Below the pieces are notes generated by a model. It saw only the letters and a program-made list of their open reading frames with translations. It was not told the DNA's origin and searched no databases. DNA of 64,000 nt from Magnolia sinica (lineage: Eukaryota; Streptophyta; Magnoliopsida; Magnoliales; Magnoliaceae): NCBI RefSeq assembly GCF_029962835.1, contig NC_080584.1, positions 81,186,862 to 81,250,861 of the forward strand. The letters are read 5' to 3'. Positions 11,209-64,000 of this stretch are shown here, one piece after another (position 1 is the first letter of the stretch; each line of letters opens with the position of its first letter). Position numbers and translations under genes: made by a program.

Positions 11209-12468
11209 CTAACACAAAGAATGTGAAGATTGAACGGATGAGAGGGTATTCGAGAATTTAAAAACATCATGCCATGAATACCCGGAAAAATGAAGGCCAT
11301 AGTATGTTCGACGTGGCAAATCATAGTAGTCCACAAAGGTTCCATCTCTAATCTGATACTTGATGATCTTTCCAGGTATGTATATCCACAACACCTCTTC
11401 CCCTCTTTCTTGAAGAAGAAGATGCAATACAGTAAATGAAACACAAAGCGGCCCGCGCTCTGGGTATTTCTCTTTGTCTGGGTTGAAGTATATAACTCTA
11501 GGCACCAACATCTCAGGATATGCCTTCACCATTGCATCGAGGTTAACATGATACCTAACGCACCACTGAGAGTAGTCATGCTCCATCTCCCATATATCGA
11601 ATTCAATTGGCAATATGGTCTTGCAACTATCATCAGTCTCTATAAAGTATAAATGCCCATTTGACTCTCCAAAATATCTGCATGTCTGGGAGTCCGATCG
11701 GCTTGATTTTGGAGGCATCTTCGTTGTCCAAAAGGATTCCCTTTCAACATGGAAGGAGACGAATGATTTACGAAGAGTTGTCCAATGCAGTGCACCGTTC
11801 CATAACACTCCCTTCTCATTGAGCAACCAACGATCTTCATAGAAAGCTTCTACTGATGCTCTCCACAACCCCGTCTGAGAAGAATAGATATCTATGCCGA
11901 CATGTTTGAGTTTTGTACGTGATACGCATACTACTTTGTAGTGGGGGGACTTGGACGGATCAAATACAATGCTGCTGCAGTAGATGAACTTGTTTTTAGG
12001 AAGTTGTGGAAGAAGCTTGTATTCCATGATGGTAGGGTTGCAAACACAGTAGGTAATATCTTCACCCATATTACGTTGACAGAAGAGAAGGCCGTTGCAG
12101 GAATTCTTGAGTTCGAAGCCTTCTTCTAAGAAAGAGAGAGATGGATCGGGGACTCCGGAGTTAGGTCTATCAATTGGAGCAAATTCGGGCGATAAATAGT
12201 CGAAGATTCTAGGAGCTGGCTGAAGGAAGAAGGAGGAGATGGAGGAATCTGGAGAGGGTCGGTGGAAGGAGTAGTGTTTTTGAGAGAAGGTGGGATCTGA
12301 GATGAGAGAAAGCCAATGCTTGGAAACACACTTGAATCTGAAAAGAGATTTAACAGGCAAGTGAGTGAAGATTTTTGTTATTATATCACCATTGTCAGTA
12401 AACATCTCCATTGCTGTTGTAATGACTGTGCATCCCTTTCTTTTTTTATCATCCATCATCATCGCCAT
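11209..12468 (-). CDS. F-box protein, At5g07610-like (F-box plus F-box-associated domain)
   Basis: An uninterrupted single-exon frame of 419 codons starts at the ATG at 12468 (MAMMMDDKKRKG). The frame is open 30 codons further upstream, but only from a TTG, so 12468 is preferred. Residues 27-66 form the F-box (DIITKIFTHLPVKSLFRFKC, then VSKHWLSLISDP). The rest matches the F-box-associated type of this family: CNGLLFCQ, YCVCNPT, VFDPSKSPHYKVVCVS, IYSSQTGLWR, GVLWNGALHW, RYFGESNGHLYFIE and a C-terminal WIYIPGKIIKYQI. Such proteins normally link substrates to SKP1-CUL1 ubiquitin ligases; the substrate is unknown. The length is normal for the family and no break is seen. A palindromic miniature element begins about 95 bases upstream of the start codon. 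The 3' end is duplicated at 9557-10140. Confidence 0.9.
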   Translation of the reverse strand: MAMMMDDKKRKGCTVITTAMEMFTDNGDIITKIFTHLPVKSLFRFKCVSKHWLSLISDPTFSQKHYSFHRPSPDSSISSFFLQPAPRIFDYLSPEFAPIDRPNSGVPDPSLSFLEEGFELKNSCNGLLFCQRNMGEDITYCVCNPTIMEYKLLPQLPKNKFIYCSSIVFDPSKSPHYKVVCVSRTKLKHVGIDIYSSQTGLWRASVEAFYEDRWLLNEKGVLWNGALHWTTLRKSFVSFHVERESFWTTKMPPKSSRSDSQTCRYFGESNGHLYFIETDDSCKTILPIEFDIWEMEHDYSQWCVRYHVNLDAMVKAYPEMLVPRVIYFNPDKEKYPERGPLCVSFTVLHLLLQERGEEVLWIYIPGKIIKYQIRDGTFVDYYDLPRRTYYGLHFSGYSWHDVFKFSNTLSSVQSSHSLC

Positions 12469-12561
12469 TATCAAAGGAAAAGAAGAAAAACGAAAGTGAA
12501 ACTTGCAAGAAAAGGAAACCAACGAGCCTTTTAATGGGCGAAGACAGACCGTTTCCAATGC

Positions 12562-12904
12562 GGACGCGGATTGCGTCCTACCTCTGTGAGGCCCACCGCG
12601 ATGTAAGTATTTTATCCACGCCGTTCACCGCTTCTATCAGACTGTTTTAAATTATCATCCTAAAAATGAGGTAGGTCCACAGCTCCAATGGACCACAAAG
12701 TGGGATTGAACTTCCACAATTAAAAAGTTCATGAGAGCAGGAGAAGTTTCGGATCAAACCATCACTGCAGCTTCCTTTGGTGTGGTTTGACCTACTTCAT
12801 TGTTAGGATGATAACTTAAAACGGTCTGATAGAAGCGAAAGGTGGATAAAATACTTACATCAACGTGGCCCACAGAAACGGGGGTGGGACGCACTCCGGC
12901 GTCC
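12562..12904. mobile_element. Palindromic Mutator-like miniature element, class I ends
   Basis: The ends are GGACGCGGATTGCGTCC and, inverted, GGACGCCGGAGTGCGTCC. The two halves are inverted copies over most of the length: GATGTAAGTATTTTATCCAC on the left against GTGGATAAAATACTTACATC on the right. The 9-bp TTCCAATGC occurs at 12553-12561 and 12905-12913, consistent with a Mutator-type target duplication. It has inserted into the end of the next element and lies close to the F-box promoter. Confidence 0.8.
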
Positions 12905-13427
12905 TTCCAATGCGGATTTGCAGGAAGTTCCTGCGCAAGCCTTTGCAAGAAGTTCGTGCGTTTGGAAATTAGGTGGGGCCACTGTGATGTTTGTTAGATA
13001 CGTTTTGTAAGTTCATTTTAGTACATGTCGTCGAAAATGAACCGCATCCAAAGCTTGAGTGAGCCGTATTAAAGGAAAATGTGGTTAGGGAAATTCGTAC
13101 CGTTAAAACCTTCCTAGTTCAACAGCGATGTTTAGATGCCATCTATACCGTTAATAATGTCATTCCTACTGAGATGAACTGAAAACAGAAATATTAGCAT
13201 GAATCAAAATTTCTGTGGCTCCACAAATATTTCAACTGTGAAAATTTAATTATCACGTTTTCGGCTCACTTGAGCTTTAAATACGGTTCATTTTTGATAA
13301 CATAATCTAAAATGAACTCACAAAACTGATGGACAGGGAGGATTTCTCATAAACATCACAATGGGTCCCACCTAATTTTCCACCGCAGGAACTTCCCGTG
13401 GAAGGCTTTCGCAGGAAATCCGCGTCC
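12905..13427. mobile_element. Palindromic miniature element, class II ends
   Basis: The right end is GGAAATCCGCGTCC, preceded by CGCAGGAACTT...AAGGCTTTCG. The left end is a mutated inverse with GCGGATTTGCAGGAAGTTCC. The core has GTGGGGCCACTGTGATGTTTG against CAAACATCACAATGGG-type inverse sequence. Related copies lie at 41650-42158, 57605-58681 and 59685-60207. Confidence 0.7.
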
Positions 13428-17483: not shown

Positions 17484-20400
17484 TGTTGAGACTCAAATAT
17501 TGCATATTTTTTCCTATTTATATCTTGGTTTTATGAACATGATAATGCTTAATGGTATATTTTATACATGTTTGTGTTGCAATGTGAGTTTAAGAGCTTG
17601 AATTGAAAAGAATGCTAAAAGCATGGATTTAAGGCTTAAGAATTGCTAAAAGCAAAGAACGGATCTTTGAAGACCAAGATGGAAAATTGAAAGACCCCAA
17701 GATCCAAGAAAACCAAGTAGAAAAGGAAGGAGATCAGAAGAGCAAAGTATTGAAATTCACTTCACAATCTATGTCATTGATCGGTGTTCGATGACGTCGA
17801 AGCCATCATTTGATGACATCGAATACAGCTTGATGGCATTGAATTTTCACAGGAAAATCAAGTTGGTGTTAAACATATTGGATGCAATTCTCGATAAACC
17901 GAAGACATGATCGATGACTCGAAAAAGATGCTCGATGACATTGAAGACTGTTCGATGGCATCAAATTTATTGAAGAAATTAAAGTAACTCGTTGGATTGT
18001 TTTGGATACTTTTTCAATGGATCAAAGACCCTTCGATGGCATCGAAGGACTTCTCGATGACATCGAAGGAAGGTTTGATGACACAAAGACCTACATAGTA
18101 CGAAAGGAGAAAATGCGCAACTTCCGGATTCAAACCCCTTCGACGACATCGAAGGCGTTACGCAGAGTTATGTGTACTGCGTAAATTTGAGGCGATTTTG
18201 CAATTTTGTGGAAACTAGCCTATAAATATAGGTTTCCTAAGTATTTTTGGGCTATTTAGGGTTTTAAGGAGTAAAGCAAAAGGGGTGGAGCCGTCATTCA
18301 AGAGTTTCTTCTTCCTTTCTTCCTAGTTTTTAATGCTTTCTTTAAGGATTTTATATCCAATCATGTCTATGGTCGGCTAAATCCCTTAGCTAGGGCTAAG
18401 GGGTAAAGCTTGTAGCATGATTGAGATATTTTTCTTATTTGATTCTTGTTCTTGTTGAACTTCTTTGATTCTAATTTGATATTTAAGGAATACTTTAAGT
18501 TTTTAATGGTTTGTTGTGATTCAAATTACAATGGATCTGTGATTACTTTGAGTATCTTCTTTTCCTGAATTGAGATTGTGAAGATAGTAAATCCTGTTGT
18601 TCACCATCGTCCTTTAGACATGGTTAGGTGATGGAATCTCTTCAAATCTTCACAATTCTCCTATGGTGGTTATGGATTGATATATCCTGTTATTTGCCAT
18701 TATCTCTAGGGCATGGTTTGATGATAAAATCACTTCCAATCCTCACAACTCTCATCTGTTGAGAATTAGGTCAATGAAAGTTTAGATCTGACTTTATTGA
18801 TATATCTTTCAATTAAATAGGATAAGACTTCAATTCCAATTGTGTTCCTTGAATCAAATGAGGAAATATCCTAATAGCTGCAAGTGGATCCCTGGAAACC
18901 TCAGTTCCCACTTTTAAATTCTTAAGTTTCTAATTAAATACTTCACAATTACTCTATTTTATTCCCAATTTAGATTTAGATCTTCTTCTAGTTTTGATTC
19001 TAGTAACCTTCAGAATACACACAAGATTAGTCCCTATGGATTCGACTTCTGTCTCACCAAGATTATTACTATATCGCAACCCTACACATGGGGTTCTGAA
19101 CAAGTTTTTGGCACCGTTGTTAGGGAGTAACGATTGCATTTTTCTAAATTTAATTAGATTTGGAATTATGTTAAGATTAGGGTTTATTTACTTTTTATTT
19201 TTAAGTTAGGGTTTTTTCTGAATTATTTTTAGAAACTAACTTATCTTTCTATTTCTAGGTTAGGAATTTTCTTAATTTGTTTTTGGAAAGTAACTTGCTA
19301 TTCTGTTTTGCATGATCTTAATATAGAAACTTCTAATTTGCTAACTTCTTTCTAAATCTCTCTCTTTCTATTTTTAGATTTCTTAATTGCTCTAGTTTTC
19401 TCTCTCTTAGGTTAAGGTTAGCTTAGTTACTTGGGGGCTGAGAGTGTTTCATGCCTAAGTGGGTCCATGATAACACTTGACATCTCTTGAGTGAAGGAGG
19501 ATTAGTTGAGGGGTTATCTATCCATCACGGGATTAGACACCACCAGATATCCTCTAGGTTAACTGAAGTTACAGCTGTCAATCAACCAGTTAACTAACTT
19601 CCAAATCCACCTCAACCTAGGGTTGAGGAAATTCAGGATGAAAATGAGGTGCATCAAGCACCCCCACCTTGTACTTTACGAGATTATTTACAACCGGCGG
19701 GGGTGAGCACACCTTCATGCATGGTTTTTCCAGAAAACACAGGAAACATGTATATCAAGCCAAGTGTGATCCAACTCCCAAAATTTCACGGACTTGAATC
19801 TGAAAATCTATATTTACACTTGAAATAGTTTGATGAGATCCTAACCACTTTATACTTTTCTAATGTGACTGAAGACACAGTCAGGCTGAAACTCTTTTCC
19901 TTTTCTTTGAAAGAAAAAGCTAAGACGTGGTTACATTCACTACATCCACGATCTATTAGTAGATGGAATGACATGACAAGGGAGTTCATAAATAAATTCT
20001 TTTCATACCATAAAACAAACACCCTTAGAAAGTCAATCATGAACTTTGCCCAAAAGGAAGAAGAAACATTCTTTCAATGTTGGGAGCAGTTTAAGGATAT
20101 TGTCAGTTCATACCCACAACACGGTTTTAAAACGTGGTGCATCACAAACTTCTTCTATGATAGACTGACATCCTTCATGCGCCAATTGGTCGAGATAATG
20201 TGCAATGGGGAATTTATGAATAAAAATGTTGACGATGTATGGGATTATTTGGATAGACTTGCTGAGAACGCATAATCATGGGACATCTCCCCAAAACCTA
20301 GCACCACTTCTAAGCCTACTCAATCAAAAGAGAGGGGCGGAATATATCTTCTGAAAGAGGAAGACGATATAAATGCTAAAGTGGCTAATCTCACAAGGAA

Positions 20401-41649: not shown

Positions 41650-42158
41650 ATTACAATAGTATGGAAAGTGTTCAAGCAAAGTTCCTGGAAATTCAGGTGG
41701 GGCCTACCATGATGTTTGTGAGAAATCCTTTCTGTACATCTGTTTTTTGATTTTATTTTAAGACATGTTGGAAAAAATGAACCGTATCCAAAGCTCAAGT
41801 GAACCGTACTAAAGGAAAATATGGTTAGGGAAATTCCTACCATTGAAATCTTCCTGGGTTCAACAGTGATGATGCCATCCATATCATTAAAAACGTCATT
41901 CTTATTGGGATGAACTGAAAACAAAAATATTAGCATGAATCAAAACTTCTATGGTCCCATGAATATTTTAACCGTGGACATTTAATTATTAGGTGTTCGG
42001 CTCACTTGACTTTTGGATACAGTTCCGTTTTTACAATATGTCTTAAAATGAACTCACGGAACAGATAAACAGGGAAGATTTTTCACAAACATCGTAGTAG
42101 GCCCCACCTGATTTCCAGCGCAGGAACTTGGGAAAGGCTTTGGCAGAAATCCGCGTCC
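41650..42158. mobile_element. Class II palindromic element (left end degraded)
   Basis: The core includes GTGGGGCCTACCATGATG on the left and, inverted, ACATCGTAGTAGGCCCCACC on the right. The right end is AGAAATCCGCGTCC. 41273-41649 between elements holds no recognisable gene. Confidence 0.65.
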
Positions 42159-42839: not shown

Positions 42840-43260
42840 CACTGTTGGGCCGGCCTTGATGTATTTGTTTTATCGACACTGTACATCCATTTCGAAATCT
42901 CATTTTACGCAATGGAACCAAAATTGAATTATATCCAAAGATCAAGTGGACCACACCACATGAAACAGTGGGGATAATGACATCTACCGTTGAAACCATC
43001 CTACGACCCACAATAACATTTATTTTCCTTCCAAGATGTTGATAAGGTAACATAGACCATCATCTTGATACAAAACTTGTGTCCCACAAGAACTTTTTAA
43101 TGGTTGGGCATTCATTCACAACTGTTTCATGTGGTGTGGTCCACTGAGATTCGGATCAGCTTCATTTTCAAATTCATTTTGTAAAATGATCTAAAAAAAA
43201 AAACGGATAGACGGCGTGGATATACAATACTTACATCAGGTGGGCCTTACAATCAAAAGT
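42840..43260. mobile_element. Palindromic element, degenerate
   Basis: GATGTATTTGTTTTATCGAC and CATTTCGAAATCTCATTTTA on the left are mirrored by GATAGACGGCGTGGATATAC on the right. Terminal sequences are unclear. It ends about 200 bases before the broken SRR1-like gene. Confidence 0.55.
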
Positions 43261-43457
43261 TAGTGTTTCCCCGGCTCACAGGATACGCTTTCCCTAGTTT
43301 CTCTCTTCGAATCGGTCTCTCCCTGTTGTATTACATTGACGATTAAACCACCACCAAATTTGTAAATAAGAAAACCTTTCTAGACTCTCAACCATCACCA
43401 AAATTCTAAATAAGAAAACCTCTCTAGACTCTTTATCTTTCTTTTCATCTTCTCATC

Positions 43458-44458
43458 ATGGAAGAAGACAAACAAGAAGCGCTGAGAATAGTAGAAGAAA
43501 TACATGTCACTGTCAAGGAATTGGAAGAGTCTGAATTCTACGGTAGAGCCCTCAACCTGTTGAATAATGATCAATCCATCAAAACCCAAATATCACGCGT
43601 TGTGGGCCCAATTCAGAACTAAAGATGGTGATATATGGCTTAGGTTCAATTGAATATAGCTTCTATTCCCAGTTCCAGCTATCATTAGCAATCTTGTTAA
43701 GGCGTGACTTCAACCATTGGATTGATGAGATCGAAATCTACGACCCCAAAACAACTAGAACTGATTCAATAGCGATGGAGATGTTGGGGTGCCGAGTTCT
43801 ATCCGAGAATGAGGAATGCATGAGGCAGTTGGAAGAACCCACGTTGTTTTTCACACCTTTTCTCGATTGCAAGCTCCTTGGAAATATTTTCAAGGCGAAT
43901 TGGTGCCCGGCTCGGTTGAACCGGATGATTTTATTGGGAAATAGCTTAGGAAGAATTGCAGAATATCATAATAGAGGTAGTTATGTAGAAGGAGAAATGT
44001 GGCGAATTGCAAACATAGAGAGATACATGGAAGAGTTCGCGATCGACCGATGTGGGTACCACAAACTATTCGTCCAAAGGCCATTCCAAATGCTTGGGTG
44101 GCACTTTTTCAACCTGTCCCCAGATGTGGACATGGATGCCTTGTTGCCGAGTAATGATATTTCTTCTTTTTTTTTTTTTTTTCCTTGTTCTTTATTTGGT
44201 TTTTACATGCATGGATTGTATAGGATGCAGTGAGTTTTTTCATGCATGGGTTGTAGGATGCAGTGACATTAGATGGGCCAATGTCACTATTGGCCCACCT
44301 GAGAAGTTTAAACCAGCATTTGATGAGATTAACGATTTGACGGTGGATGTTGAGTGTGTGTTTGTTCATGTTTATAGGGAAGCTAACTCAATGGCAGAGG
44401 AATTAGCTAACAGAGGAGCTAATCTAACTGAGCTGTGTGTTTTGGAATCGAGTTTATG
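43458..44458 (+). pseudogene. Broken paralogue of the SRR1-RNase H fusion gene
   Basis: The start ATG at 43458 opens MEEDKQEALRIVEEIHVTVK, matching the other copy from its 34th residue. One base is missing near 43605 compared with that copy (GGGCCC against GGGACCC), giving a stop after 55 codons. The match resumes in another frame from 43625 (MVIYGLGSIEYSFYSQFQLS...). The SRR1-like region then runs to about 44150 (NWCPARLNRMILLGNSLGR; HFFNLSPDVDMDALL). The following intron, middle exon and first half of the RNase H exon are absent, and sequence passes through a T-rich stretch straight into the last third (DIRWANVTIGPPEKF...HVYREANSMAEELA), stopping at 44458. A sequencing error could explain the one-base gap but not the missing exon parts. 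The leader shows an imperfect tandem duplication (ATAAGAAAACCT.TCTAGACTCT twice, about 43350-43432). Confidence 0.85.
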
Positions 44459-44559
44459 ATCTTTTATTATGGTTTTTAGATACTGAGAAATGTGGACGAA
44501 GTGGATTTTTGTTCATTGATGGCCCACCTTAAAGAGGCTCCATTTTTCATTGATGTACT

Positions 44560-45108
44560 TGTTGGGGGCAAAAATATAAGTCCGAAGACTCGGACTTAAT
44601 GCCTCGGGACTCGGACTTGATACCTCGGGTCGCCGAAGGATGCGTCAAATCCGAGGCATGGTTCGCTAAACCGAGACAATGGTTGAGTCGGTTCGAACGA
44701 CTTATCAGCGTTCCGGGCATGTGTCGGGCGGACCGCCTTGCAAGACCGACCGTCGCTAGGTCAGATCTCATCCCGGATATCTTGGGATAAGATCTCCGAC
44801 CCCGAAGCTCACGGGATCGGATGATGGCTCAAGATGGGCACGATCCTATCTCCGTGATACCAGGAGAAGATCCCGCGCTCGATATCAGGAGGACCCGAGA
44901 AGACCCAGCAGCTATAAAAGGAGGACCCTTGTCACCTTGAGAGGTACGGAACAAATCCCTCCTAAAAACCTTCCAATACTTTGAGACCCCGAGTCCAGGC
45001 CTGACTTTGGCATCGGAGGGTCCCCTGCTCGAGCCAGGGTCTCCTTTGTTTTCTTTCTGTGCAGGCATACAAGGGTCTAGGAGGACGAACCAGATAATCG
45101 CATCAACA
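44560..45108 (+). repeat. 5' LTR of the Tat-type element
   Basis: 549 bp with TG...CA ends. TATAAAA at 44913-44919 is the likely core promoter. The sequence contains repeated TCGGACTT motifs near its start. Confidence 0.92.
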
Positions 45109-45130
45109 GTTTGGCGCCGTCTGTGGGAAC
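45109..45130 (+). other. Primer binding site of the Tat-type element
   Basis: TTTGGCGCCGTCTGTGGGAA directly follows the LTR. TGGCGCC at the LTR border is common in Tat and Athila elements, in the position of a tRNA-primed minus-strand start. The exact tRNA cannot be named from sequence alone. Confidence 0.7.
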
Positions 45131-48100
45131 GTGCAAAAAGCCATCCCGTACCTCTATACTGAGCCCAATGGTGATGACTAGAAGGACGGTCCCAGAAGAA
45201 GATTTGAATGAGAACGCGATTACAGGGCCACCCGGTCCAATCGCCGTTCCCCCAGCCCAGAACGCACCTAACAACCGCCGACGAGGGGCGACCGGAACAA
45301 GCAATAATCAGCGGGGTCGCGACGATGGGCGGTTGGACAAGGAGGTTCAGGAAATCCGCTCTGATATGAATACGATGAAGCAGATGCTGGAACGAATGTA
45401 TCAGCAGCAAATGCAGCCACTCCCGCATCTTCAAGGGGAGACAGCGCGCGTACCAACGGCGGCGGTTGATCCTCAACCTTCTGCGCCGCAGTCTTTCCGG
45501 CCGAGCCAACCTCAAGGCGGGTCAGAACCATCTCCAGCGCATTCAGCCAACGCCTCCCTCCCCCCGACTGATCTTCGGCACGAAATAGAACGAAGAAGGC
45601 GCAATCGCCCTTCCATGGAAGGCACGGCAGAAAGCAGCGAACCTTGGAAAGCCGACATTCAAAATTTCAAAAAAGAAGTGCGGGAAGAGATGGCAAAAGA
45701 GATGGCGGACATAAAGCACGGCCGGAACGTACATTCAACCGGGTCCGAATCGAAAGCATCCCCCTTTGTGGACTCGGTAATGAAAGCCCGATTGCCCGAG
45801 AGATTTCGATTACCTCAAATCACTCCTTTCACCGGCAAGACTGACCCGACCGAGCATATTGAGTGCTTCAGAACCTATATGGAACTCCATGATGCCTCGG
45901 ATGCAGTAATGTGTCGGGCCTTTTCTCTTACATTGACTGATGTAGCTCGACTGTGGTTCAAACAGCTGAAGCCAAAGTCCATCAGTTCATTCGTTGAGCT
46001 GAGCGACGCCTTCCTCACCAACTTCATCGGCGGAAAGAAAAAATTAAAGCCCCCTGCACATCTGAATAACCTAGTCCAGAAGCAGGGAGAGCTATTGAAA
46101 GATTACATCAAGCGTTTTAATTTCGAATCCCTTCAAGTTCGGAAACATTCGGAAGAAACGGCCCTCAATGCACTCATGCAAGGAGTTAGGGATAAGCCAT
46201 TCCTGGCATCTCTAGACAAAACTCCGCCCGATACTCTGGCAGAGTTTATGGCACGGTCCGATAAATATGCCAACGCCGAGGAAGCGCGAATCCTGCGTGA
46301 AACTAAAACCTCGACCAAAGAGTCGGCCAAAAAAGAAGCCGACTCGGCCGGGGGAAGGAAAAGCAAAGAGGATCAAGCACGTGACGAGCGAAGGTCAGGA
46401 AAACGGCCGGATCGAAAATTTTCCATATACACTCCCCTGAATAAGACTCGGGAAGAGGTACTGATGGAAATAAAAAACGAAGGCTTTGTTAGCTGGCCCA
46501 GTAAGCTCAGGAGTAATCCTAATCGGCGGGATAAGGATAAGTACTGCCATTATCACCGCGATCACGGGCATAACACAAGTGATTGCCGTCACTTGAAAGA
46601 AGAAATCGAACGACTCATAAAAGACGGCCGACTCAGAGAACATATGGTCAAAGCTGGGGCATCCGAGGCGCGCCCGACCGAGAGTCAGCCTATGGAAGAA
46701 ATCCGGACGATTATCGGCGGTCCACAATGTGGGGGCGACTCAAACAACGCGCGAAGGAATCACGCACGAAAACTCAGTCAGCCTCGGTCCGAGCTCATGA
46801 TTATAGATCGGCCATCAAAAGAAAAGAAAAGAGAAAGGTATTGCATATCGTTCACTGAAGAAGACGCCCGAGGTATCCATCACCCCCACGATGATGCGCT
46901 GATCGTCTCGTTGGCGATCGCTAACCGAAAAGTGTTTCGGATACTCGTCGATACGGGGTCATCTGCAGACGTGTTATTTACTCAAGCGTTCGACAAAATG
47001 GGGATCGAACGATCCGCGTTACGCCCGGTTCGGACCCCATTGATCGGTTTTTCCGGAGGACAAGTATTGCCCGAGGGGACTGTCTCATTACCACTCACTG
47101 CTGGCACTGCCCCACATCAGACGACGATGATGGTTGACTTCCTGGTCGTCGATCAACCCTCGGTATACAACGCGATACTCGGCCGACCTTCATTGAGTCT
47201 CCTCCAGGCCGTGGTATCCACATACCATCTTACAATGAAATTCCCGACCGAATCAGGAGTCGGAATTGTTAAAGGAGACCAGCAAGACGCGAGGCGATGT
47301 TACATGGTAGCTGTAAAAGGAGCCGCCGACAAGAATCCGACCAACATATTAACAATCGAATCGTTGGACCCTCGGGGCGAGAATTATGAACGAGGACAGC
47401 CGGTCGAAGATCTTGTCTCAATCGCCTTAGTCGAAACAGATGGATCCAAGACAGTGCGAATTGGCTCATCTCTGCAGTCCCCTTTGAGAGAAAAGCTGAT
47501 CGCCCTGCTCCGAAAGTACGCCGACGTATTCGCTTGGAATCATGAAGATATGCAAGGGATCGACCCCTCCGTGGTGACTCACCGACTTAACGTCGATCCG
47601 TCATACCGACCGATCCGACAGAAGCGACGACCGCTCGGCCCTGAACGATACGCCATCATCGAGAAAGAAGTCAACAAACTACTCCAAGCTAGTTTCATAG
47701 AAGAAATACACTATCCAGAGTGGGTCGCGAATGTCGTGCTTGTAAAGAAGTCCAATGGGAAGTGGCGAGTCTGTATTGATTATACCGACTTGAATAAAGC
47801 CTGCCCCAAAGATAGCTTTCCGCTTCCGAGGATAGACCAGCTAGTAGATAGTACAGCCGGACATGAGCTCCTTAGCTTCATGGATGCTTATTCGGGATAT
47901 AATCAAATTGTAATGCATCAAACAGATAAATCAAAAACGACCTTTGTCACCGACAAAGGCCTTTATTGTTACCGAGTGATGCCATTTGGTCTGAAGAATG
48001 CCGGTGCAACTTATCAAAGGTTAGTTAACAAAATCTTTGCTCGACTTATAGGCCGAACCATGGAAGTATACATCGACGACATGCTTGTCAAGAGCATACA

Positions 48101-50811
48101 CGCGGCGGATCATGTGAATGATTTGGAAGAAATGTTTCTAATCCTGCGGAAGTTCCGGATGAAGCTAAATCCAAGTAAATGTGCTTTTGGAGTAGGCTCC
48201 GGAAAATTCCTCGGTTTCTTAGTCAGTCAGCGAGGAATAGAGGCAAACCCTGAGAAGATAAAGGCTCTGATTGATATGGAATCCCCCAAAACCATTAAGG
48301 ACGTCCAAAGATTGGCCGGACGAGTCGCAACACTCAATCCCTGTCCAGAGCAACGGATAAGTGTCTCCCTTTCTTCAAACAATTGAAAGGAAGACAAGCG
48401 ATGGGTTGGACGGAAGAATGTGAAGCAGCATTCCAGCAATTAAAATTATATCTCGGTTCTGCACCTCTCTTATCAAAACCTGAACCGGGGGAGTCGTTGC
48501 TCCTCTATCTAGCTGTATCCGAGGCAGCGGTTAGCTCGGCTTTGATACGAGAATCCGAAGGAAAGCAACTACCGGTTTACTACGTCAGCAAAGCGTTATT
48601 GCCAGCAGAAACGAGATACCCAAGCTTGGAAAAGTGGCCTTGGCTTTAATAACTTCCTCTCGGCGACTTAGGCCGTACTTCCATGCCCACACCATCATTG
48701 TAATGACCAACCTTCCGCTTCGCCAGGTACTGCAGAAACCAGAAGCTTCCGGCCGACTCACCAAATGGGCTATCGAGCTGAGTGAGTTTGATATTCAATA
48801 TCGACCAAAGGCAGCAATCAAAGGGCAAGCCGTAGCTGATTTTATCGCCGAGGGAACGTCTTCAGCCGAACTTTCAGCAAATGATACACCGAAGGACGGT
48901 GCAGCTCCGACCTCAACCGCTTCCCCTTGCCCTATTCCATGGAATCTGTATGTCGACGGTTCTTCCAACTCGAAGGCCGGTGGGGCTGGGGTTGTGACCC
49001 CGATCACACCTATATACAGTATGCCTTACGACTTGGATTTCAAGCGTCGAACAATACGGCGGAATATGAAGCGTTGCTACTCGGTCTCCGACTCGCCGCT
49101 AGCATGGAGGTCACGCACCTAAGCGTTTTCAGCGACTCTCAGTTGGTTGTTAACCAAGTTACCGGTGTATACCAGACACGGAAAGACCGGCTAAGGGCTT
49201 ACATGGAGAAAGCGAAAGAACTTATCAACAGATTTCAATTCTGTCGTGTAACTCGGATACCTCGTACGGAAAACAGCAAAGCCGATTTGCTAGCAAAGCT
49301 CGCCTCGGCCGAAGAAGACGATATACCCAGGTCCGTCCCTGTCGAATACGTCGATAAACCAAGTATAGACGAGCCAATTAGCGAGGCCGTCAATACAATC
49401 GACTCGGAACCATCCTGGATTGATCCAATCCGCCAATTCCTTGACGAAGGAAAGTTGCCAGAGGATCGCACCGAGGCCCGACGAATTAAGATCCGAGCTT
49501 CCCGTTACACCATACTCAACGGGACCCTTTATAAGAAAGGATACTATGCCCCGTTGCTGCGGTGCCTCAAACCCAGCGAGGTAAACTATGTGTTACGGGA
49601 AATTCATGAAGGAATCTGCGGAAACCACTCTGGAGGGCGATCCCTCGCCTACAAGGTCTTACGACAGGGATACTACTGGCCCACTATCCAACACGACGCT
49701 CGTGAGCTCGTTCAAAGATGCGACAGATGCCAACGGTTTGCGGCAATTCCGAGGCAAGCACCCGAGGCACTGACGCCGATGACTGGTCCCTGGCCTTTCG
49801 CACAATGGGGCATCGACCTCATAGGACCGCTCCCTATGGGAAAATGGCAGACCAAGTTTGCTGTGGTAGCAGTGGACTATTTTACGAAGTGGGCCAAGGC
49901 AGAACCATTAGCCAAAATAACCGAGCAGAAGATCACCGAATTTGTATGGAAAAATATTATCTGCCGATTCGGAGTACCCCGTACCATTGTCACAGACAAT
50001 GGAAGGCAATTTGATAATAGGAGCTTTCGTGAGATGTGCAAGAACCTCGGGATCAGGAATATTTATTCATCACCGCATCACCCTCAAACCAACGGACAAG
50101 TCGAGGCAGTTAACAAGATTATCAAGCAACATCTTCGGACCAAGCTTGGCCGGGCCAAAGGAGCATGGGCCGAAGAGCTCCCGAAAATTCTTTGGGCTTA
50201 CCGAACTACAACCCGAACGGCCACAGGAGAAACTCCGTTTTCACTCGCTTACGGCTCGGAAGCAGTCATTCCCGTCGAAATCGGATTACCTTCGGCTCGA
50301 ATCACCTTATTCAATGCAGAAGAGAATGAAGAACTCCTTGCACTCGGACTCGACCTTCTGGACGAACAAAGGGAAAGGGCAAGGCTGCGCACGGAGGCTT
50401 GACAACGACAAGTGACTCGGTTCTACAATACCCGAGTTAAGATTAGAAGATTCCGAAGGGGAGATATGGTTCTTCGGAAAGTGTTTTCCAACACTAAGGA
50501 GTTTGGGTCGGGTACACTGGGACCCAATTGGGAAGGACCCTATATCGTCTCGGGCACCATTAGACCAGGAACATATCGGCTAGAAGACCTAAACGGACAG
50601 TCATTGCCTCATCCATGGAACGCTGAACACCTCAAGGTCTACTATCCTTAGCTTGCTATTTGATGTTTAAAGACCCTGAGGAAGAGTAAAGCCGAGTCAA
50701 ATGAATAAAGACATGCTTTTCTTTTTCATTCGTCCGAATATGTGTAAGTACAAAAGCAACCGAATACATCGGAGCAAAAGAAAATATATACATATAAAAA
50801 AACCAAAGTCT

Positions 50812-53091
50812 TCATGCGTCGGCCCCGTCCCCGGCAGTTGTGCCTTCAGCGGCGGCGTCCGGATTCTCGGACTCTGAGGCTGCCCCGCCTTCGATTTCTG
50901 AAAGGTCAAGGTCAGGAAAAGACTTCTTTATATCCTTGACGCATTCCAGATATCCGCTCTGGAACAGGCGATCCCTCTCGTCCTCAAACTCGGCCGACTC
51001 AAGGAATGCTTGGACGGCTTGGTCCCTAGCCGTCTCGGCCTCCCGAGTCTTCTCCTCGGCCTGTTGAATGCGCTCCGCCGCCTCAAGCTTAGCCCGAGCT
51101 AAGTCATCCGCGCACGAAGCATGGACTGCCAGAACTCGCTGATTCTCCTCTTCGGCTTTGGAGAGTCGAACCAGTGCCTGAGCGACCTCTGCCTTCGCTT
51201 CGTCCAGGGCCCTTCTGGAAGAAGCCGCCTCTGCCCTCGCGTCTTCGGCAGCTTTCCGAGCAAGGGACGCCTCGCCTGTCAGGACGCCGACCCGGATCTC
51301 GGCCTCAGACAGAAGAGCCTGCAGCCGATGAGTTGAGGATAGCTCCCTGCTGGCCTTGATTAAGCAATGAGCGAGTTCAAAAAACATCCGGGCAGCGTGG
51401 CTGACGGTCTGCGACGACGGGGCGTTGTAGAGTTTCACGAACTCTCTTTCACACCCATGGGCCAGGGCCCAAGGAACCATCCCCGACACCACTTGCTGCA
51501 GGATTGACGGCCCTTCCTGGTTCGTCTCTTCCCCTCGGGAGGACGCAGTCCTCGTCTCTTCCTCTCCCCTTGAGGTCGCGGCCCCGGTCTCTTCTTCCCG
51601 ACTCGGCACCGTCGTCTCAACGCGCGCCGAGTCAGGTGCCGCCTGAGGATCCGAAGGCGCCTGAGGATCCGAAGCAGCAATCGCCGTCTCTTCCGCCCTT
51701 TCGTCCGGGTCGGGAATCACGACGACCGGAGGGGCAGAAGAGCTCGCTGGCTCTTTCTCCTTCCGCGGCACCCTCTGCCTCTTCGGTGGCCGAGGCTCTG
51801 AAAGAAGAACTGACCGCGGAGGTGCCTTCAACTTCGTGACTGGTCTAAGGGCAGGACGAGCTCCAGTCATCTCCGGTTCGGGGACAATCCTTAGGTTGGG
51901 ACGAGCTTCGGGCAGATCTGCAGAAACAAAAAAAGGAGGGGGAGAGTAAGGCGAAGTAAGTCGGGGGAAATTTGGAAAATTCAGAAGATTCGTTCTTAAT
52001 TACCTGTAACTTCCGAGTCCAGACCTGCAAGGTGAAGGCGCTCCGGCTGTAGAAGCACCTTCCAAGACCTGTCCCCCGGATCCAACGACTTTAACTCTTT
52101 GATCCGAGCCGAGGCAGTGTTGCCGAGCTTCGGCTTCTTCTTCGGAATATCTGCCAAACATAAGTTCGTCAACTTCAGGGTAAAAACAAAAAAAAAAAAA
52201 AAAAAAAAACCAAGTCACCTGCTCTTTGGAAAGCCCGAGGGACACGAGCCTCGTGGGACCCGGACTCATCCGTCTCCCAGCGACCACATGCCCAAAACCA
52301 ACGCTCTCTCCAGTGTTTGTTGGAAGTGGGAGGGTCGGTGATTAGGGAACCACCTCCGCCTCGCCAAGCAGCAAAGACGTAGAAGCCGGGATAGTTCGGA
52401 TTTACCCGCACCTGATACAGGTGGAGAAATTCATCGACTGTAAGTGGTGGTTGTTCCATCTCAGCCCACAACACTGCACATCCGAGTAAGTTCCTCCACC
52501 CATTCGGGACTATCTGCCCCGGGGCAATCTTTATGCGAGACAAAACTCCCGGACGATGGCCGAGGGGGAGACGCAAGCCGCATTGCATCGACACTTGGTA
52601 AATCGCGACGGCCCGGCAAGAGGGTGATCCGGTAAATCATTCGGGCGGGGAAGATAGGTGATGACCGACTGGGAATATGGTATCCGACTCGGATTCTGTC
52701 CAAGTGTCTCAGTCAAGACCGAGGGAACCGGACCGCTTAAATCTTCCCCTATCCTTCAGCAATTCGGCTGCGCGCCGACTCATTCGCCTCGATCAGGGGT
52801 TCCTTCGGCGATTAAAACTTCATCTTCTTCCTCCTCATTCTCCTCCATATCCCTTGGCAAGTTAGGCCTTCCCGGGCGGGTTAATAGAGACGACCCGCCC
52901 CGAGAAGGAACGACGGGAGCTGGGCGCTCCGCCGGAGCTTCGGTGACTCTCTCCGGTAGACAAGCAGCGTTGGCGTCCACTGCTATCTCCGTCAGTAAGG
53001 AAGGCGATTCCGCAACGTTCCAAAAACGTTGCGCTTCGCCTTCGTCTCCGGAAGCTCCCCCTTGGGGACTTTGAGAACTCCTATCCGCCAT
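50812..53091 (-). CDS. Antisense accessory gene of the Tat-type element
   Basis: Between pol and the 3' LTR, minus-strand sequence has high coding potential in several blocks. The first (from ATG at 53091) begins MADRSSQSPQGGASG. A middle block (about 52.2-52.6 kb) has DEFLHLYQVRVNPNYPGFY and SNKHWRERWFW, resembling the 'putative gypsy-type transposon' domain (PF04195). The last (50.8-51.9 kb) is rich in E, A and R and predicts a long coiled coil (ARKAAEDARAEAASSRRALD) with an acidic tail. Separate blocks with splice-like borders fit an intron-containing gene. Antisense ORFs in this location are known for Tat relatives such as Grande and Retand. Function is unknown. A TTATATAA site at 53266-53273 lies about 175 bases upstream. 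Confidence 0.7.
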
Positions 53092-53265
53092 TATTACCAA
53101 ATAAAGAGGAAGGAGAAACTCACCGGAGGGAGAAAGGAAAACGGAGATGGCGGAAAGAGGCACCGACGGTAAAGAAAAAGAAAAGGAAGGAGACGAAAGG
53201 CTATAGGAAATGCGGAGCGGGAATGGCAAGAGCAGTAAAAGTTTAAAGTGCGGGGCCCCTGACGT

Positions 53266-53273
53266 TATATAAG
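53266..53273 (-). promoter_or_regulatory. Candidate TATA box for the antisense gene
   Basis: TTATATAA lies about 175 bases before the minus-strand start at 53091. The stretch 53280-53570 upstream has no frame and holds CACGTGG and CATTAAATG-type motifs that recur in the older Tat remnant near 16.9-17.0 kb. Confidence 0.45.
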
Positions 53274-53571
53274 ATCGCCATACGGCGGAGACAATTAATG
53301 AGGAAATGATTCGACGCCTGCATCGATTCCCTCGCTCGACACGTGGCGCACGTCAACTGGCAATAATAATACCTTCGCTACGTGTCCAATCCTCATTGGC
53401 GGGATGTGTGATTTGACGACCGACGGCGCATGCGATGTCAGAAGCTGAACCGTCCCCCATCAAAGGCCTCATGGAATGCATTTAATGATCACGACTCATC
53501 TCGGACTGAGTTACGAACCGACTCCAAACTCGCTACTCCTCAGTGTCATATGAAACACTCATTGATGTACT

Positions 53572-54120
53572 TGTTGGGGGCAAAAATATAAGTCCGAAGA
53601 CTCGGACTTAATGCCTCGGGACTCGGACTTGATACCTCGGGTCGCCGAAGGATGCGTCAAATCCGAGGCATGGTTCGCTAAACCGAGACAATGGTTGAGT
53701 CGGTTCGAACGACTTATCAGCGTTCCGGGCATGTGTCGGGCGGACCGCCTTGCAAGACCGACCGTCGCTAGGTCAGATCTCATCTCGGATATCTTGGGAT
53801 AAGATCTCCGACCCCGAAGCTCACGGGATCGGATGATGGCTCAAGATGGGCACGATCCTATCTCCGTGATACCAGGAGAAGATCCCGCGCTCGATATCAG
53901 GAGGACCCGAGAAGACCCAGCAGCTATAAAAGGAGGACCCTTGTCACCTTGAGAGGTACGGAACAAATCCCTCCTAAAAACCTTCCAATACTTTGAGACC
54001 CCGAGTCCAGGCCTGACTTTGGCATCGGAGGGTCCCCTGCTCGAGCCAGGGTCTCCTTTGTTTTCTTTCTGTGCAGGCATACAAGGGTCTAGGAGGACGA
54101 ACCAGATAATCGCATCAACA
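53572..54120 (+). repeat. 3' LTR of the Tat-type element
   Basis: 549 bp, identical to the 5' LTR except for one C/T difference in the CATCYCGGATATC stretch. TATAAAA is at 53925-53931. Confidence 0.92.
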
Positions 54121-54125
54121 GTACT

Positions 54126-57604: not shown

Positions 57605-58681
57605 GGACGCGGATTTCCTGCGAAAGCCTTTCGCAGGAAGTTCCTGCGCAAGGATTCTGGGTGTGGCCACTGTGATGTTTGCGAGAAATCCAACCCATCC
57701 ATCAGTTTTTCGATTTCATTGTAGGACATGCTAACAAAAATGAGGAGGATCGAAAACTTAAGTTGAGCATACAAGATGAAACAGTGGGAAAATGAATGCC
57801 TACTGTTGAAGCTAGGATCTACCTAGATGTTTATATTCCATCCAAACCGTTTATAAGGTCATTTTAACTGAGATGAAATGCAAACACTAAGAACTTAAAT
57901 CGATACCAAACTTTTTTGGCCATATAAATGTTTCAACGGTGGTCACTAAATCCCTACTGTTTCCTCTTGCGTGGCCCATTTAAGTTTTAGATACACCTTA
58001 TTTTTATAGCATATACTAAAATAAGCTCAAAAAACGGATGAACAGAGTGGATTTCTCACAAACATCGCAGCGGGCCCCACCCAGAATCCTTGCCCAAGAA
58101 GTCCCTGCGAAAGGCTTTCGCAGGAAATCCGGGGAACGGATTGGCTACTCCCCCTGACACCAGCCCCTTGCTGCTGTTCGGTGGTCTGTGGGCCCTACTA
58201 TGATGTATGTGTTTCATCCATTCCGTTCATCTATTTTTAAAGATCATTTTAGGGCCTCATCATAACAATAAGAGGGATATAAATCTTTAGTGGACCACAC
58301 CACAGGAAAACAATAGTGATTGAATATCCATCATTTAAATCTTCCTAAGGCCCACTGTACTGTTTTTTTGACATCCAATCTGTTCATTAGGTCATAAAGA
58401 CCTGGATGAAGGGAAAAAACAAAGATCATCTTGATCCAATACTTTTATGGCCCCAAAAAGTTTTTAATGGTCGACGTTAATTCAACACTGTTTCCTGTAA
58501 TGTGGTCCACTTGAGATTATTATATATTCAATTTTTGTATAATATCATAAAATGATTTATAAAAACACATAGACAGCATGGATGAAACACATAGATCACG
58601 GTGGGGCCCATAGACCACCGAACACCAGCCATTGGCTGGTGGCAAGGTGAGTAGCGAATCCGTTTCCGGAAATCCGCGTCC
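57605..58681. mobile_element. Class II palindromic element with perfect 9-bp duplication, carrying a nested class III copy
   Basis: It begins GGACGCGGATTTCCTGCG and ends GGAAATCCGCGTCC. GTTGTTGCA flanks it at 57596-57604 and 58682-58690. The right terminal repeat is split by the element at 58132-58667. 57154-57595 upstream holds degenerate repeat sequence and no gene. Confidence 0.88.
58132..58667. mobile_element. Class III palindromic element nested in a class II element
   Basis: 536 bp, with ends GGGAACGGATTGGCTACTC and (inverted) GAGTAGCGAATCCGTTTCC. GGAAATCCG is duplicated at 58123-58131 and 58668-58676, which is host-element sequence. This makes the insertion order clear. Confidence 0.88.
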
Positions 58682-59684: not shown

Positions 59685-60207
59685 GGACGCGGATTTCCTG
59701 CGAAAGCCTTCCCCGGGAAGTTCCTGCGGTGGGAATCCAGGTGGGGCCACCATGATGCTAGTGAGAAATCCACCCCGTCCATCTGTTTTATGAGCTCATT
59801 TTACAATAAATAGCAAAAAAGTGAGCTAGACCCAAGACTCAAAGTGGGCCACACGGGAGGAAACAGTGGGGCTCCGTTGAAATATTTGCATGGACACAGA
59901 AATTTTTAATCAGGCTAAGATCTTTTCTTTTCAATTCATCCCAGTGGGAATGACCTTATAAACCGTTTGGATGACATAAAAACATCAAGGCGGATACCAG
60001 GAAGGTTTCAACGGTAGGCATTTCTTTCCCCAGTTTTCCCTATAATGTAGCCCACTTGGATATTGGATCCAGTTCATTGTTGGCCAAATGCCTTGAAATA
60101 ATCTCAAAAAACGAATAGATGGTGTGGATTTCTCATCAACATAAATGTGGGCCCCACCTACTTTCCCACCACAGTAACTTCCTGCGAAAGGCCGGAAATC
60201 CGCGTCC
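59685..60207. mobile_element. Class II palindromic element next to the SRR1-like gene
   Basis: It starts GGACGCGGATTTCCTGCG and ends GGAAATCCGCGTCC, with mirrored cores (ACCATGATGCTAGTGAGAAA against TTTCTCATCAACATAAATG). It ends 116 bases before the start codon of the SRR1-RNase H gene, so the promoter must lie inside it, overlap it, or be very short. Confidence 0.75.
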
Positions 60208-60299: not shown

Positions 60300-60440
60300 G
60301 AAGCTCTTCATCTCTCCTTCATCATGGAAAGAGATGAAAAAGAAGAACTGAAGGAAGCTCTTCAACAACCCATCATTGAGGGAGATCAAAAAGAACTGAA
60401 GGAAGCTCTTCATCTCTCCATCATGGCGGGAGACGAACAA
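60300..60440 (+). repeat. Three tandem copies of a roughly 48-bp unit spanning the start codon
   Basis: GAAGCTCTTCATCTCTCC..CATCATGG.. recurs with GAAGCTCTTCAACAACCCATC and again GAAGCTCTTCATCTCTCCATC. The third copy contains ATGGCGGGAGACGAACAAGAAGC at 60423, aligned to the start codon of the broken paralogue at 43458. The duplicated leader is now translated as KEELKEAL / QKELKEAL repeats. Confidence 0.85.
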
Positions 60441-63400
60441 GAAGCAATCAGATTGATAGAAGAGATTCATGTCACTATCAAGGAAGTCCAAGACTCCGAA
60501 TTCTACATCAAAGCAGTCAACCAATTGCATAACAATCAATCTATCCAAACCCACATATCACGTGTTCTGGGACCCAATTCACGACTCAAGATGGTAATAT
60601 ACGGCTTAGGTTCAATTGAGTATAGCTTCAGGTCACAGCTCCAACTATCTCTAGCGATCTTATTGAGACGCGACTTCGATTATTGGATTGATGAGATGGA
60701 AATCTATGACCCCAAAACAACTCCAGCAGATTCGATGGCGATGGAGGCCTTTGGATGCCGAGTTCTGTCTAAGAATGAGTTTTGCATGAGGAAGGTGGAG
60801 GAACCCACGTTGTTTTTCACACCGTATCTTTTTTGTAATCAAATTGGATACATTTTCAAGGCGAATTGGTGCCCAGCTCGATTGAATAGGATGATTTTGT
60901 TGGGGAATAGCTTAGGAAGAATTGCAAAAGATGCAGATTTTTATTATGGAGATGAAGTGTGGCGCATTACAAGCATGCAGAGTTATACGGAAGAATTTGA
61001 AATTGATGTAGATAATTGTCCAGGTCCATTTCGTCATTTTGGGTGGCACTTTTTTAACGTGTGCCCTGATGTGGACATGGAGGCCTTGGTTCGAAGTAAG
61101 TTTTCTTCTCTTTTTTATCTACTTTGATTGGTTTTTTCATGGATTATAGGATTTAGATTTTAGACTGAAGAGTATGGTGTAAGCCCTGAATTGGGCGAGT
61201 CATGACTGGACCGGGTTTTAGGGGTTGTTTGGTACCATGGGATTTCAAATCCCCTTTACGTTTGGCGCCATAAAGTAACTGGGGGTTTCAAATAAAGGGG
61301 GTTTGAAATCTACAGCTAAAGCTTGGATTACATCTAAAATCCTTCCAAAAGTTGCATGTGTAACATGTGTGTCACTAGTCTATTAATCTATTGGATACAT
61401 GACCCACTAATGCTTTCTGAAAATAATTAGATTATCAATTGCATCACTATAATTACTTTAATATGATGATCAGTGCTGTTCAAACATTGTTCATGTAAAT
61501 CAACAGTCAAAACTTATTGGTTAGTCATTTGGACATGATCTTGTATTTGTGGCCATCTGGGATTTAGAATTTCATCATTTTCAGGCAAAGGATATATTTC
61601 AGGAGGGCTTTTTTTTTTTCTTAGCTTGTTAGTACACCCTACTGTCAGTTCACACTTCAATGTTAACCACTCCCACTAGAGAATCGTTACCAAGACCACA
61701 GTGTTGAAACGAGGTGTCTTTCACCAGTCTACCACTTGAGCTATATATGCATCGACTTATTACAACTATTGTGTCAAACTTTATGTCCGTTCACTAATTA
61801 AAGATAAAGTTGATTTAGTATTAAATTCATACCTGTACGTGTAAATACACATGCATAGTTATTTTTGGCTTAAATTTGATTTTGAATCCAGGATGCCAAA
61901 CACAACAAGAGGATTTCAAATCCAAGGGTTCCAAATCCACGCTCCTAAAGGGAACCCTGGAATTATGGTACAAAGGGGGTTGGGACTTAGGGCTCAAGAG
62001 GGATTTGATACCCAACACGAACTGGATGGTTGGATGTGAGCGTTTTCTTTATTTCAAACCTGGCAAGTTAATCAATTCAGGTCTAGATCTCAGCAACAGC
62101 CCAACTCATCAGTATCTAGTTCGGGTTTACATCGGGTCCAAGTCTGGTGGGGAGAATAGCCCAGGATGGACGGTTAGATTTGGTCGTTTGCAGTTCTCTT
62201 TTTAACCGCCCATCAAAATTTGCCAGTAGGATGGTTAGTTACTGACCATGTTAGATCCACGTTGGGGCCCTTGGTTTGGACGGTCCAGATTGGTATTCGA
62301 GTAAGTCACGTGTAGAGTACTTTTCCTGATCGGATTAGTCTACATAGATGAGAATGTATATTAACCATACGCATGCACACAATCATCAAACAGGATGGGA
62401 TACATGAATTTTCAATCCAAGCCATCCAACTCGCCTGGCCCATTATAGATCATCCATAACCCTAAAAAAATCATACTGAGCCGATATTAAACCTACGCTC
62501 TCCATGGTCCACTATTTGAATGGTTTGGATGAATATTTTGTTAATTTCAGTTGTCATTCTTTTATTGAAGGGGTTCCTTCGACTAAGGTGCGGCTACCAG
62601 AAGAGGATGAGCATGAGGAGGACTTCGAATATGAGTACGCATCGTTTGTTTTTTGCAGTTTTGATAGGGTGTGGTGGCCCCCCACTGAAGTAACTGTTAT
62701 GGGGGCCACTTTCCGCCCTTATATTGCATCTTAGATTATGATCTGAACCGTTGGTATTCTCAATTCTATGCTCGAGGGGTGACCAGGTCAAACATTTGTA
62801 CAGATGTTGATGGTTCGGATCAACCCAAGATCGACCAATCAGGTCCGATATTGGGTGAGTCTATCAAACGCATCCAAACAACAGCTTAACAGGAACTACA
62901 AAGCCCATGACCTACTGATGGGGGCCATATTTCACTAATCCAAACGGTTGACCCGATAGTACCTACAATGAATATGGTTATCTGATAAGTTATCTAGATT
63001 GGAAAATCTGAACCGTCTAATATTTTACAGTATGAACTATGTCCATATTACCGGCGGTTTTGGGTTTTTAGCGGCATTTTTTGGCCGCCGGTAAAGATCT
63101 GTTTTCTTGCTTGAATGTTTCATCATGTTCCATGCATGATCTGGGCCCTCCAATTGGACCTTAAAATTCCCTTTTTTTAGTGGTATTAAGCTAAGTAACT
63201 CAATACTAATGATTTTCTCCTTTTTGATCCACAGAACTAAAGGTGAGTACATCAAGATGATAACAGCAAAACTGTTCTTCAAGAATGACAAACCTGAGGA
63301 TTGGAGATATGAGCATCGACGGCCCCGTAGGTTTCGGCAAAGGTGGTGGCCCCCTCACCCTGGATGGATCAAGCTGAATTTTGGTGGTACAGATCCTACC

Positions 63401-63775
63401 AAGAGTAGGCCATCAGGTTTTGGTGGGATCTTCCACAATGAGCATGGAAACATACTATTATCTTACGCTGGGCCACTCAAAGATTATGATCCGATCACAG
63501 TGGGAATTGAGGCATTGAGGGTGGGAATGAGATGTGTTAAGCTCTTATCCACCGTTTCTAAATTGATCGTTGAGGGGGACTCGCTCAGCATTATCAGATG
63601 GGCCAAAGAAATTGTTGATCCACCCGAGAGGTTTGATGAAGCATTTGATGAGTTTAATGATTTGACAGAGGATGTTGAATGTGTGATTGTTCATGCTTAT
63701 AGGGAAGCTAACTCAATGGCAAGGGAATTAGCTTGTAGAGGAGCTAATCTAACTGAGCTTTGTATTTGGGAGTAG
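60324..63775 (+). CDS. SRR1-like protein fused to an RNase H-like domain, three exons
   Basis: Proposed exons are 60324-61095, 62571-62634 and 63235-63775. They join in phase to 458 residues, with donors GTAAGT and GTACGC and acceptors TTGAAG and CCACAG. Direct joining of the first and last exons would be out of frame, which is why the 64-nt exon (VPSTKVRLPEEDEHEEDFEY) is included; it is the least certain part. Residues 88-210 resemble SRR1 (SENSITIVITY TO RED LIGHT REDUCED 1): MVIYGLGSIEYS, LQLSLAILLRRDFDYWI, EIYDPKTT, FGCRVLSKNE, PTLFFTPY, NWCPARLNRMILLGNS. Residues 316-450 resemble the plant RNase H-like (RVT_3) family: PPHPGWIKLNF, GFGGIFHNEHGNILLSY, LIVEGDS, VHAYREANSMARELA. SRR1 acts in phytochrome-linked and clock signalling in Arabidopsis; the role of the fusion is unknown. 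The first 33 residues come from tandem duplication across the old start. No break is seen. Confidence 0.75.
61216..62035. repeat. Intron 1 miniature-element sequence
   Basis: GGTTGTTTGGTACCATGGGATTTCAAATCC near 61222 (in two parts) and GGATTTCAAATCCAAGGGTTCC near 61911 suggest the ends of one or two decayed miniature elements; a SINE lies between. The rest of intron 1 holds no recognised gene. Confidence 0.4.
61611..61750 (-). mobile_element. Second copy of the tRNA-derived SINE, in intron 1
   Basis: On the minus strand TAGCTCAAGTGGTAGACTGG (61742-61723) is a box A and GGTAACGATTC (61691-61681) a worn box B. The spacing and the GTTTCAAC between them match the SINE at 9748-9907. It ends in a short A-rich tail. 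It is older than the first copy and target duplications are not clear. Confidence 0.65.
63043..63100. repeat. GC-rich hairpin resembling CACTA subterminal sequence, in intron 2
   Basis: TTACCGGCGGTTTTGGG and, inverted, GGCCGCCGGTAA form a hairpin of about 58 bases. The same TTACCGGCGG/ACCGCC motifs lie just inside the left end of the CACTA element at 481-500. It may be a relic of a short CACTA relative. Confidence 0.5.
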
Positions 63776-64000
63776 AATTTATGATATTTTATAATGGTTT
63801 TTAGATACTATGATATGTAGAAAAAGTGTTTTTTTTTTTTTTTTTTTGTTCATTGGTTTTTCATTGATGAATGTGTTGGCTTCAATTTGGACATGTAATG
63901 GTTGTACTGTGTATGTATGTGCCGGGCATGTTAGAACTAAATACAATATAAATTAAATTGAATGATTTGTGACCTAGACATCGAAAAGGGCAAATTAATA

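Follow-up and report, generated by a model that had tools for sequence, protein, structure and literature searches.

An SRR1-like gene of Magnolia sinica with a putative degenerate RNase H-like last exon

RESULTS

Gene model and reading frame. The locus lies near the 3' end of the stretch of Magnolia sinica DNA that was analyzed, a window of 64,000 nucleotides from contig NC_080584.1 (all positions below are those of the window). It carries an SRR1-like coding exon followed, on the same strand, by an exon for an RNase H-like domain (Table 1). Rebuilding the three-exon model of the first-pass annotation reproduced its coordinates, its GT/AG splice ends, its phases (1, then 2), and an open frame of 1377 nt that encodes 458 residues and ends in a stop codon. 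The 48-bp tandem repeat at the 5' end extends the N terminus of the SRR1-like protein upstream, and initiation at the probable original ATG would cut 33 residues from it.

Splice sites were scored on crude scales made for this analysis, the donor scale being out of 8. The donor of exon 1, with GTAAGT on its intron side, is strong (6/8), and that of the proposed exon 2 scores 3/8. The acceptor CCACAG before 63235 scores 10.5. An alternative in-frame acceptor at 63243, which would give a two-exon model, scores 7.0 and is no better proven, since it is lower-scoring and lies only 8 nt behind CCACAG. The last exon also holds a possible start codon of its own (ATG 63257), and the open RNase H frame starts 95 nt upstream of the acceptor at 63235. 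Left unspliced, exon 1 runs into an in-frame stop ending at 61127, which would yield a protein consisting of the SRR1 part and a tail of 10 residues.

Table 1. Features of the SRR1-like locus and of its duplicate (window positions)
Feature	Position	Strand	Remarks
Upstream start codon ATG	60324	+	Inside 48-bp tandem repeat, 2.5 copies, 60320..60444
Probable original start codon ATG	60423..60425	+	Aligned with start of second locus (43458)
Exon 1, SRR1-like part	60324..61095	+	257 codons + 1 nt; donor CGAA/GTAAGT
Intron 1 (proposed model)	61096..62570	+	
Exon 2 (proposed), 64 nt, acidic	62571..62634	+	Not distinguishable from chance candidates
Intron 2 (proposed model)	62635..63234	+	
Last exon (exon 3), RVT_3 (RNase H-like) domain and stop	63235..63775	+	Acceptor CCACAG/
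First catalytic Asp position, replaced by Gly	63383..63385	+	NFGG versus FDG; MAFFT and profile alignment
Third catalytic position, Asp retained	63578..63580	+	EGDS, reference GDS; MAFFT and profile alignment
Fourth catalytic Asp position, replaced by Arg	63722..63724	+	SMARELA, reference AD; MAFFT and profile alignment
Second locus: exon 1 and initial portion of intron 1, duplicated	43458..44239	+	1-bp deletion near 43606
Second locus: last 60 RNase H codons and start of 3' flank	44268..44513	+	Juxtaposed to intron 1 sequence by internal deletion

Domains. An SRR1-like domain had been placed in exon 1 and an RNase H (RVT_3) domain in the last exon, and both assignments were confirmed by Pfam matches far beyond chance. 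SRR1 (PF07985) matches residues 78-216 with 82.2 bits against a cut-off of 24 (E 5.4e-23), and RVT_3 (PF13456) matches residues 333-446 with 51.7 bits against a cut-off of 21.6 (E 1e-13), spanning model positions 7-121 of 123 and so nearly the whole model. Both matches exceed the curated cut-offs, and therefore both domains are real. By eye, the SRR1 part contains YDP and ANW motifs. In fission yeast Srr1, residues D111-P112, H148, and W157 were shown to be important (available text of PMC10219947).

Other searches added little. The AlphaFold models of the SRR1 part (mean pLDDT 47.6) and of the RNase H exon (mean pLDDT 47.7) were too poor for use. Foldseek with the latter returned nothing at E <= 0.001, human RNase H ranking 19th (E 0.24), and the secondary-structure order of this low-confidence model, which by eye fits an RNase H fold, was given no weight. 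Against solved structures, exon 1 had no match and exon 3 only one weak match, to an uncharacterized protein (E 0.86). In non-plant collections, exon 1 had no relative among viral contigs or among genome contigs (the latter searched with the second-locus copy added as an alignment), and exon 3 had none in either, from which nothing follows for plants. The SRR1 family likewise gave no signal in one plasmid record or 14 control genomes, which is not proof of its absence from these non-plant collections.

Catalytic residues of the RNase H part. Six RNases HI of bacteria and archaea, taken from plasmid records (Azospira, Salinibaculum, Calothrix, Acetoanaerobium, Natrinema, and Nonomuraea), served as the reference set. 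All six keep D, E, D, and D at four positions, which we take to be the catalytic ones. DEDD is named as the RNase H catalytic center in the available text of PMC10508981.

The domain of exon 3 lacks the DEDD set expected of an active RNase HI. The first and fourth Asp are replaced (Table 1), and the second position is not Glu: it is Asp in both automatic alignments and Gly if the helix is read ungapped by eye (VGIEALRVGM in exon 3, AEYEALLLGL in the Ty3-type element of the window). As a means of detection, the profile comparison of exon 3 with the six RNases HI was weak (hhalign, E 0.0018, probability 14.8%), and an HMM built from the six failed to detect exon 3 alone (E 0.17). The domain is very probably no nuclease any more. 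With its catalytic residues replaced, the name RNase H would therefore describe fold and ancestry rather than activity.

A diverged duplicate in the same window. DNA homology links 60406-61161 with 43441-44239 and 63593-63838 with 44268-44513, in the same order, on the same strand, and past the stop codon. The second locus lacks exon 2 and intron 2, along with most of intron 1 and roughly the first two thirds of the RNase H exon. When the gap 61096-63600 was compared with 43000-44600, only matches of 10-14 bases (E >= 1.7) were found outside intron 1, none of them in exon 2, and comparison with 1-60000 gave no match at E 0.01. In Pfam, the SRR1 fragment of the second locus scores 102.2 bits and its RNase H remnant 19.7 bits, below the cut-off of 21.6.

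Because the homology extends into the beginning of intron 1, the second locus is a DNA-level duplication and not a processed copy, and the domain pair predates the duplication that made it. The first-pass annotation had described both parts at this locus in the same order. Collinear homology upholds the order, but the SRR1 part has suffered the 1-bp deletion and the RNase H part is cut to its last 60 codons. The further claim that the second locus shows the fusion to be no artifact could not be maintained: that locus demonstrates the age of the pair rather than its co-transcription, and, having lost 1 bp and a large internal stretch, it cannot show one protein. Its donor at 44150, homologous to that at 61095, reaches the RNase H remnant in frame through acceptors 44224 or 44257. 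Over all donors tried there are nine in-frame joins, which would lend mild support to splicing, any pair fitting about 1 time in 3 by phase alone.

Divergence between the two loci. The loci were compared over 217 SRR1 codons and the 60 shared RNase H codons, with bootstrap intervals. The SRR1 part gave dN 0.18, dS 0.71, and dN/dS 0.26 (0.17-0.38). A block of 113 of its codons differs at 16/7/36 sites by codon position, a third-position excess with p 1e-5, and the first 50 codons from ATG 60423 differ at 13/5/17. Purifying selection has thus acted on this part, at least for some of the time.

For the RNase H part, dN was 0.16, dS 0.31, and dN/dS 0.51 with an interval of 0.21-1.32 that includes 1, the ratio being pulled towards 1 by a partner that is itself broken. 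Its differences by codon position are 8/10/12 (third-position excess p 0.28), and its proportion of differing sites (30/180) is much like that of the 3' flank (12/63). Judged from these counts, purifying selection on the RNase H part is not clearly visible. The dS values of the two halves differ as well (0.71 versus 0.31; Fisher p 0.02 on rounded counts). The halves may lack one simple shared history, and gene conversion or chance could explain the difference.

The RNase H frame of 179 codons is intact at the first locus. When neutral drift of 0.1 substitutions/site was simulated 3000 times, 12% of the runs left it open if indels were excluded and 0.2% if they occurred at a rate of one per ten substitutions; at 0.35/site the corresponding figures were 0.4% and 0. 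The indel-free figures may be nearer, because the 246 shared bases of 63593-63838 and 44268-44513 show no indel.

Exon phase and the proposed middle exon. It had been claimed that the phases agree only when the 64-nt exon lies between the two domains. This proved incorrect, given that direct in-frame splices exist, such as 61095 to 63243 and 61099 to 63235. The AG sites preceding 63243 and 63267 both yield open two-exon frames with donor 61095. Without the middle exon, each of the donors 61042, 61060, and 61099 can also be joined directly to 63235, open and in frame.

Enumeration of the gap between donor 61095 and acceptor 63235 yielded 118 candidate middle exons that fit phase and frame. The proposed 64-nt exon is one of 20 that reach at least its level on both crude splice scores. 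As a control, 40 random introns were drawn from the dinucleotide frequencies of the gap. They contained on average 71.9 fitting exons (44-134), of which 8.5 were as good as the proposed one (1-19), and every one of the 40 held at least one phase-consistent exon as good. The real gap is thus rich in candidate exons relative to random introns. Since equally good candidates are many in real and random introns alike, the 64-nt exon is possible but of little weight and without statistical support. Exon phase as proof of this exon, or of the fusion, is ruled out by the candidate exons and the direct splices enumerated here.

DISCUSSION

The explanation that best accommodates these observations, and that we consider marginally probable, is a duplicated SRR1-like gene whose last exon is a degenerate RNase H domain of retrotransposon type, joined by splicing from 61095. 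The donor at this position would splice the SRR1 exon to the RNase H exon by way of the 64-nt exon, of another short exon, or of none (direct splice to 63243). The diverged duplicate argues for the join, as it keeps order and strand with homology past the stop, and the unbroken 179-codon RNase H frame counts on the same side. On the gene strand, the gap has a greater excess of T over A than 97% of equally long segments of the window, with 28.5% as extreme either way. Against the join stand the proposed exon 2, which the statistics do not support, the interval of the RNase H dN/dS, the codon-position counts and flank-like divergence of that part, the unequal dS of the two halves, the loss of most of the RNase H part from the second locus, and the ATG at 63257, which could begin a separate RNase H-like protein. 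We rate the chance of a single transcript that joins SRR1 and RNase H as somewhat better than even. We consider a fusion protein that works and is under constraint clearly less probable than such a transcript, and the chimeric gene is perhaps still forming.

That ATG, in frame just ahead of the RNase H domain, is one of the signs that would suit two neighboring genes duplicated as a block, an SRR1-like gene ending in "intron 1" and an RNase H-like gene starting at about 63257. Unspliced exon 1, with its early stop, would give a plain SRR1-like protein, and AATAAA-like signals occur in the gap at 61291, 61422, 61796, 61820, and 62486. Such signals are, however, common in AT-rich DNA. The strong donor that ends the SRR1 part and the good acceptor ahead of the RNase H frame, which count in favor of the join, are not expected of two neighbors, nor is an open RNase H frame that begins 95 nt ahead of this acceptor. 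We hold this arrangement to be rather unlikely. The replaced catalytic residues suggest a different possibility, namely that the unit is decaying, an SRR1-like paralogue with a fossil RNase H fragment that is functionless whether spliced or not. The RNase H part shows no codon-position bias between the copies, against the marked bias of the SRR1 block, and the second locus carries its 1-bp deletion and its large internal deletion. The intact frame at the first locus speaks against decay, and the missing bias comes from a comparison of 60 codons only with one broken partner. This reading, too, we judge unlikely. In that case, the tail being merely fossil, the locus would represent an ordinary gene duplication with a retrotransposon-type remnant.

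For the chimeric gene that we favor, the RNase H exon is presumably akin to plant L1 elements, from the look of the sequence. With the RVT_3 or archaea-like RNase HI of plant L1 and Tat retrotransposons it shares the near-full PF13456 match, and it differs from them in the replacement of the first and fourth catalytic Asp. In a Pfam scan for remains of a donor element, which covered 7 of the 13 plus-strand gap frames of at least 38 codons, no retrotransposon domain was found in these seven, the sole match being DUF3606 (E 0.12), below its cut-off. Derivation of the exon from the Ty3-type element of the window was rejected, as no tblastn match of the 458-residue protein (E <= 10) fell inside that element.

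If translated, the tail would most likely be passive, binding nucleic acid or a protein partner and positioning the SRR1 domain. We propose this role because inactive "tether" RNase H domains act so in retroviruses. There, according to the available text of PMC10508981, the degenerate RNase H has lost catalysis and kept its fold and substrate binding, and similar degradation of RNase H is reported for Tat elements. The likeness lies in an RNase H fold whose DEDD center is damaged, and it is one of mode of action and not of membership. In those systems, the tether is part of a polymerase protein with an additional active RNase H, whereas in the present case an SRR1-like protein would carry it as its tail. 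Quite improbable, in our view, is a plant protein, both fixed and expressed, whose catalytically dead RNase H fold directs the SRR1 domain to RNA:DNA hybrids or another form of nucleic acid; if true, this would provide a physical link between the SRR1 domain and nucleic acid binding.

Within the SRR1/BER1/SRRD family (PF07985; Arabidopsis SRR1), the gene is placed by an SRR1 domain well above the Pfam cut-off and set apart, if spliced, by its C-terminal RNase H-fold extension. No such extension is mentioned for the family in the available portions of PMC4203120, PMC6704554, PMC10219947, and PMC12455975. What SRR1 does biochemically is unknown according to the accessible part of PMC10219947, which reports structural likeness to methyltransferases and effects of fission yeast SRR1 on DNA damage tolerance and centromere rearrangements. 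Arabidopsis SRR1 affects flowering and clock-linked genes (accessible part of PMC4203120). If true, a lasting fusion would point to an action of SRR1 close to nucleic acid and render that idea testable.

Fusion of host genes with pieces of retrotransposons has precedents in plants, and the reference list of PMC4838847 includes maize Bs1 and chimeric retrogenes. Among the papers listed by searches of open-access literature, we found no report of an SRR1-RNase H fusion and no paper on a chimeric, domesticated RNase H domain in plants.

Other features of the window. A plant snoRNA match, an F-box gene, and a Ty3-type element give the window the look of plant nuclear DNA. The Ty3-type retrotransposon occupies 44547-54122 and starts about 90 bp past the end of the second locus. 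Its 564-bp end repeats (44547-45110 and 53559-54122) are 99.8% identical, so that the insertion is probably recent. The coding part is divided among several frames (45081-48386, 48299-48649, 48535-49122, and 48885-50402), and an open frame of 395 codons lies on the minus strand at 50812-51999, between pol and the right end repeat. Just 5' of the SRR1-like gene is a fold-back repeat of a MITE-like family (59685-60207), with arms about 71% alike. Related stretches are found at 12939-13427, 41687-42158, and 57605-58131 and elsewhere.

A match to plant snoRNA R71 (RF00097) at 20021-20127 on the minus strand scores 43.3 bits against a cut-off of 40 and could be spurious, as an open frame that is gag-like by eye lies opposite (19829-20275). 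An F-box protein with an At3g26010-like propeller (Pfam) is encoded in one open frame on the minus strand at 11209-12624, and by eye a possible partial second copy lies at 9811-10203 on the same strand.
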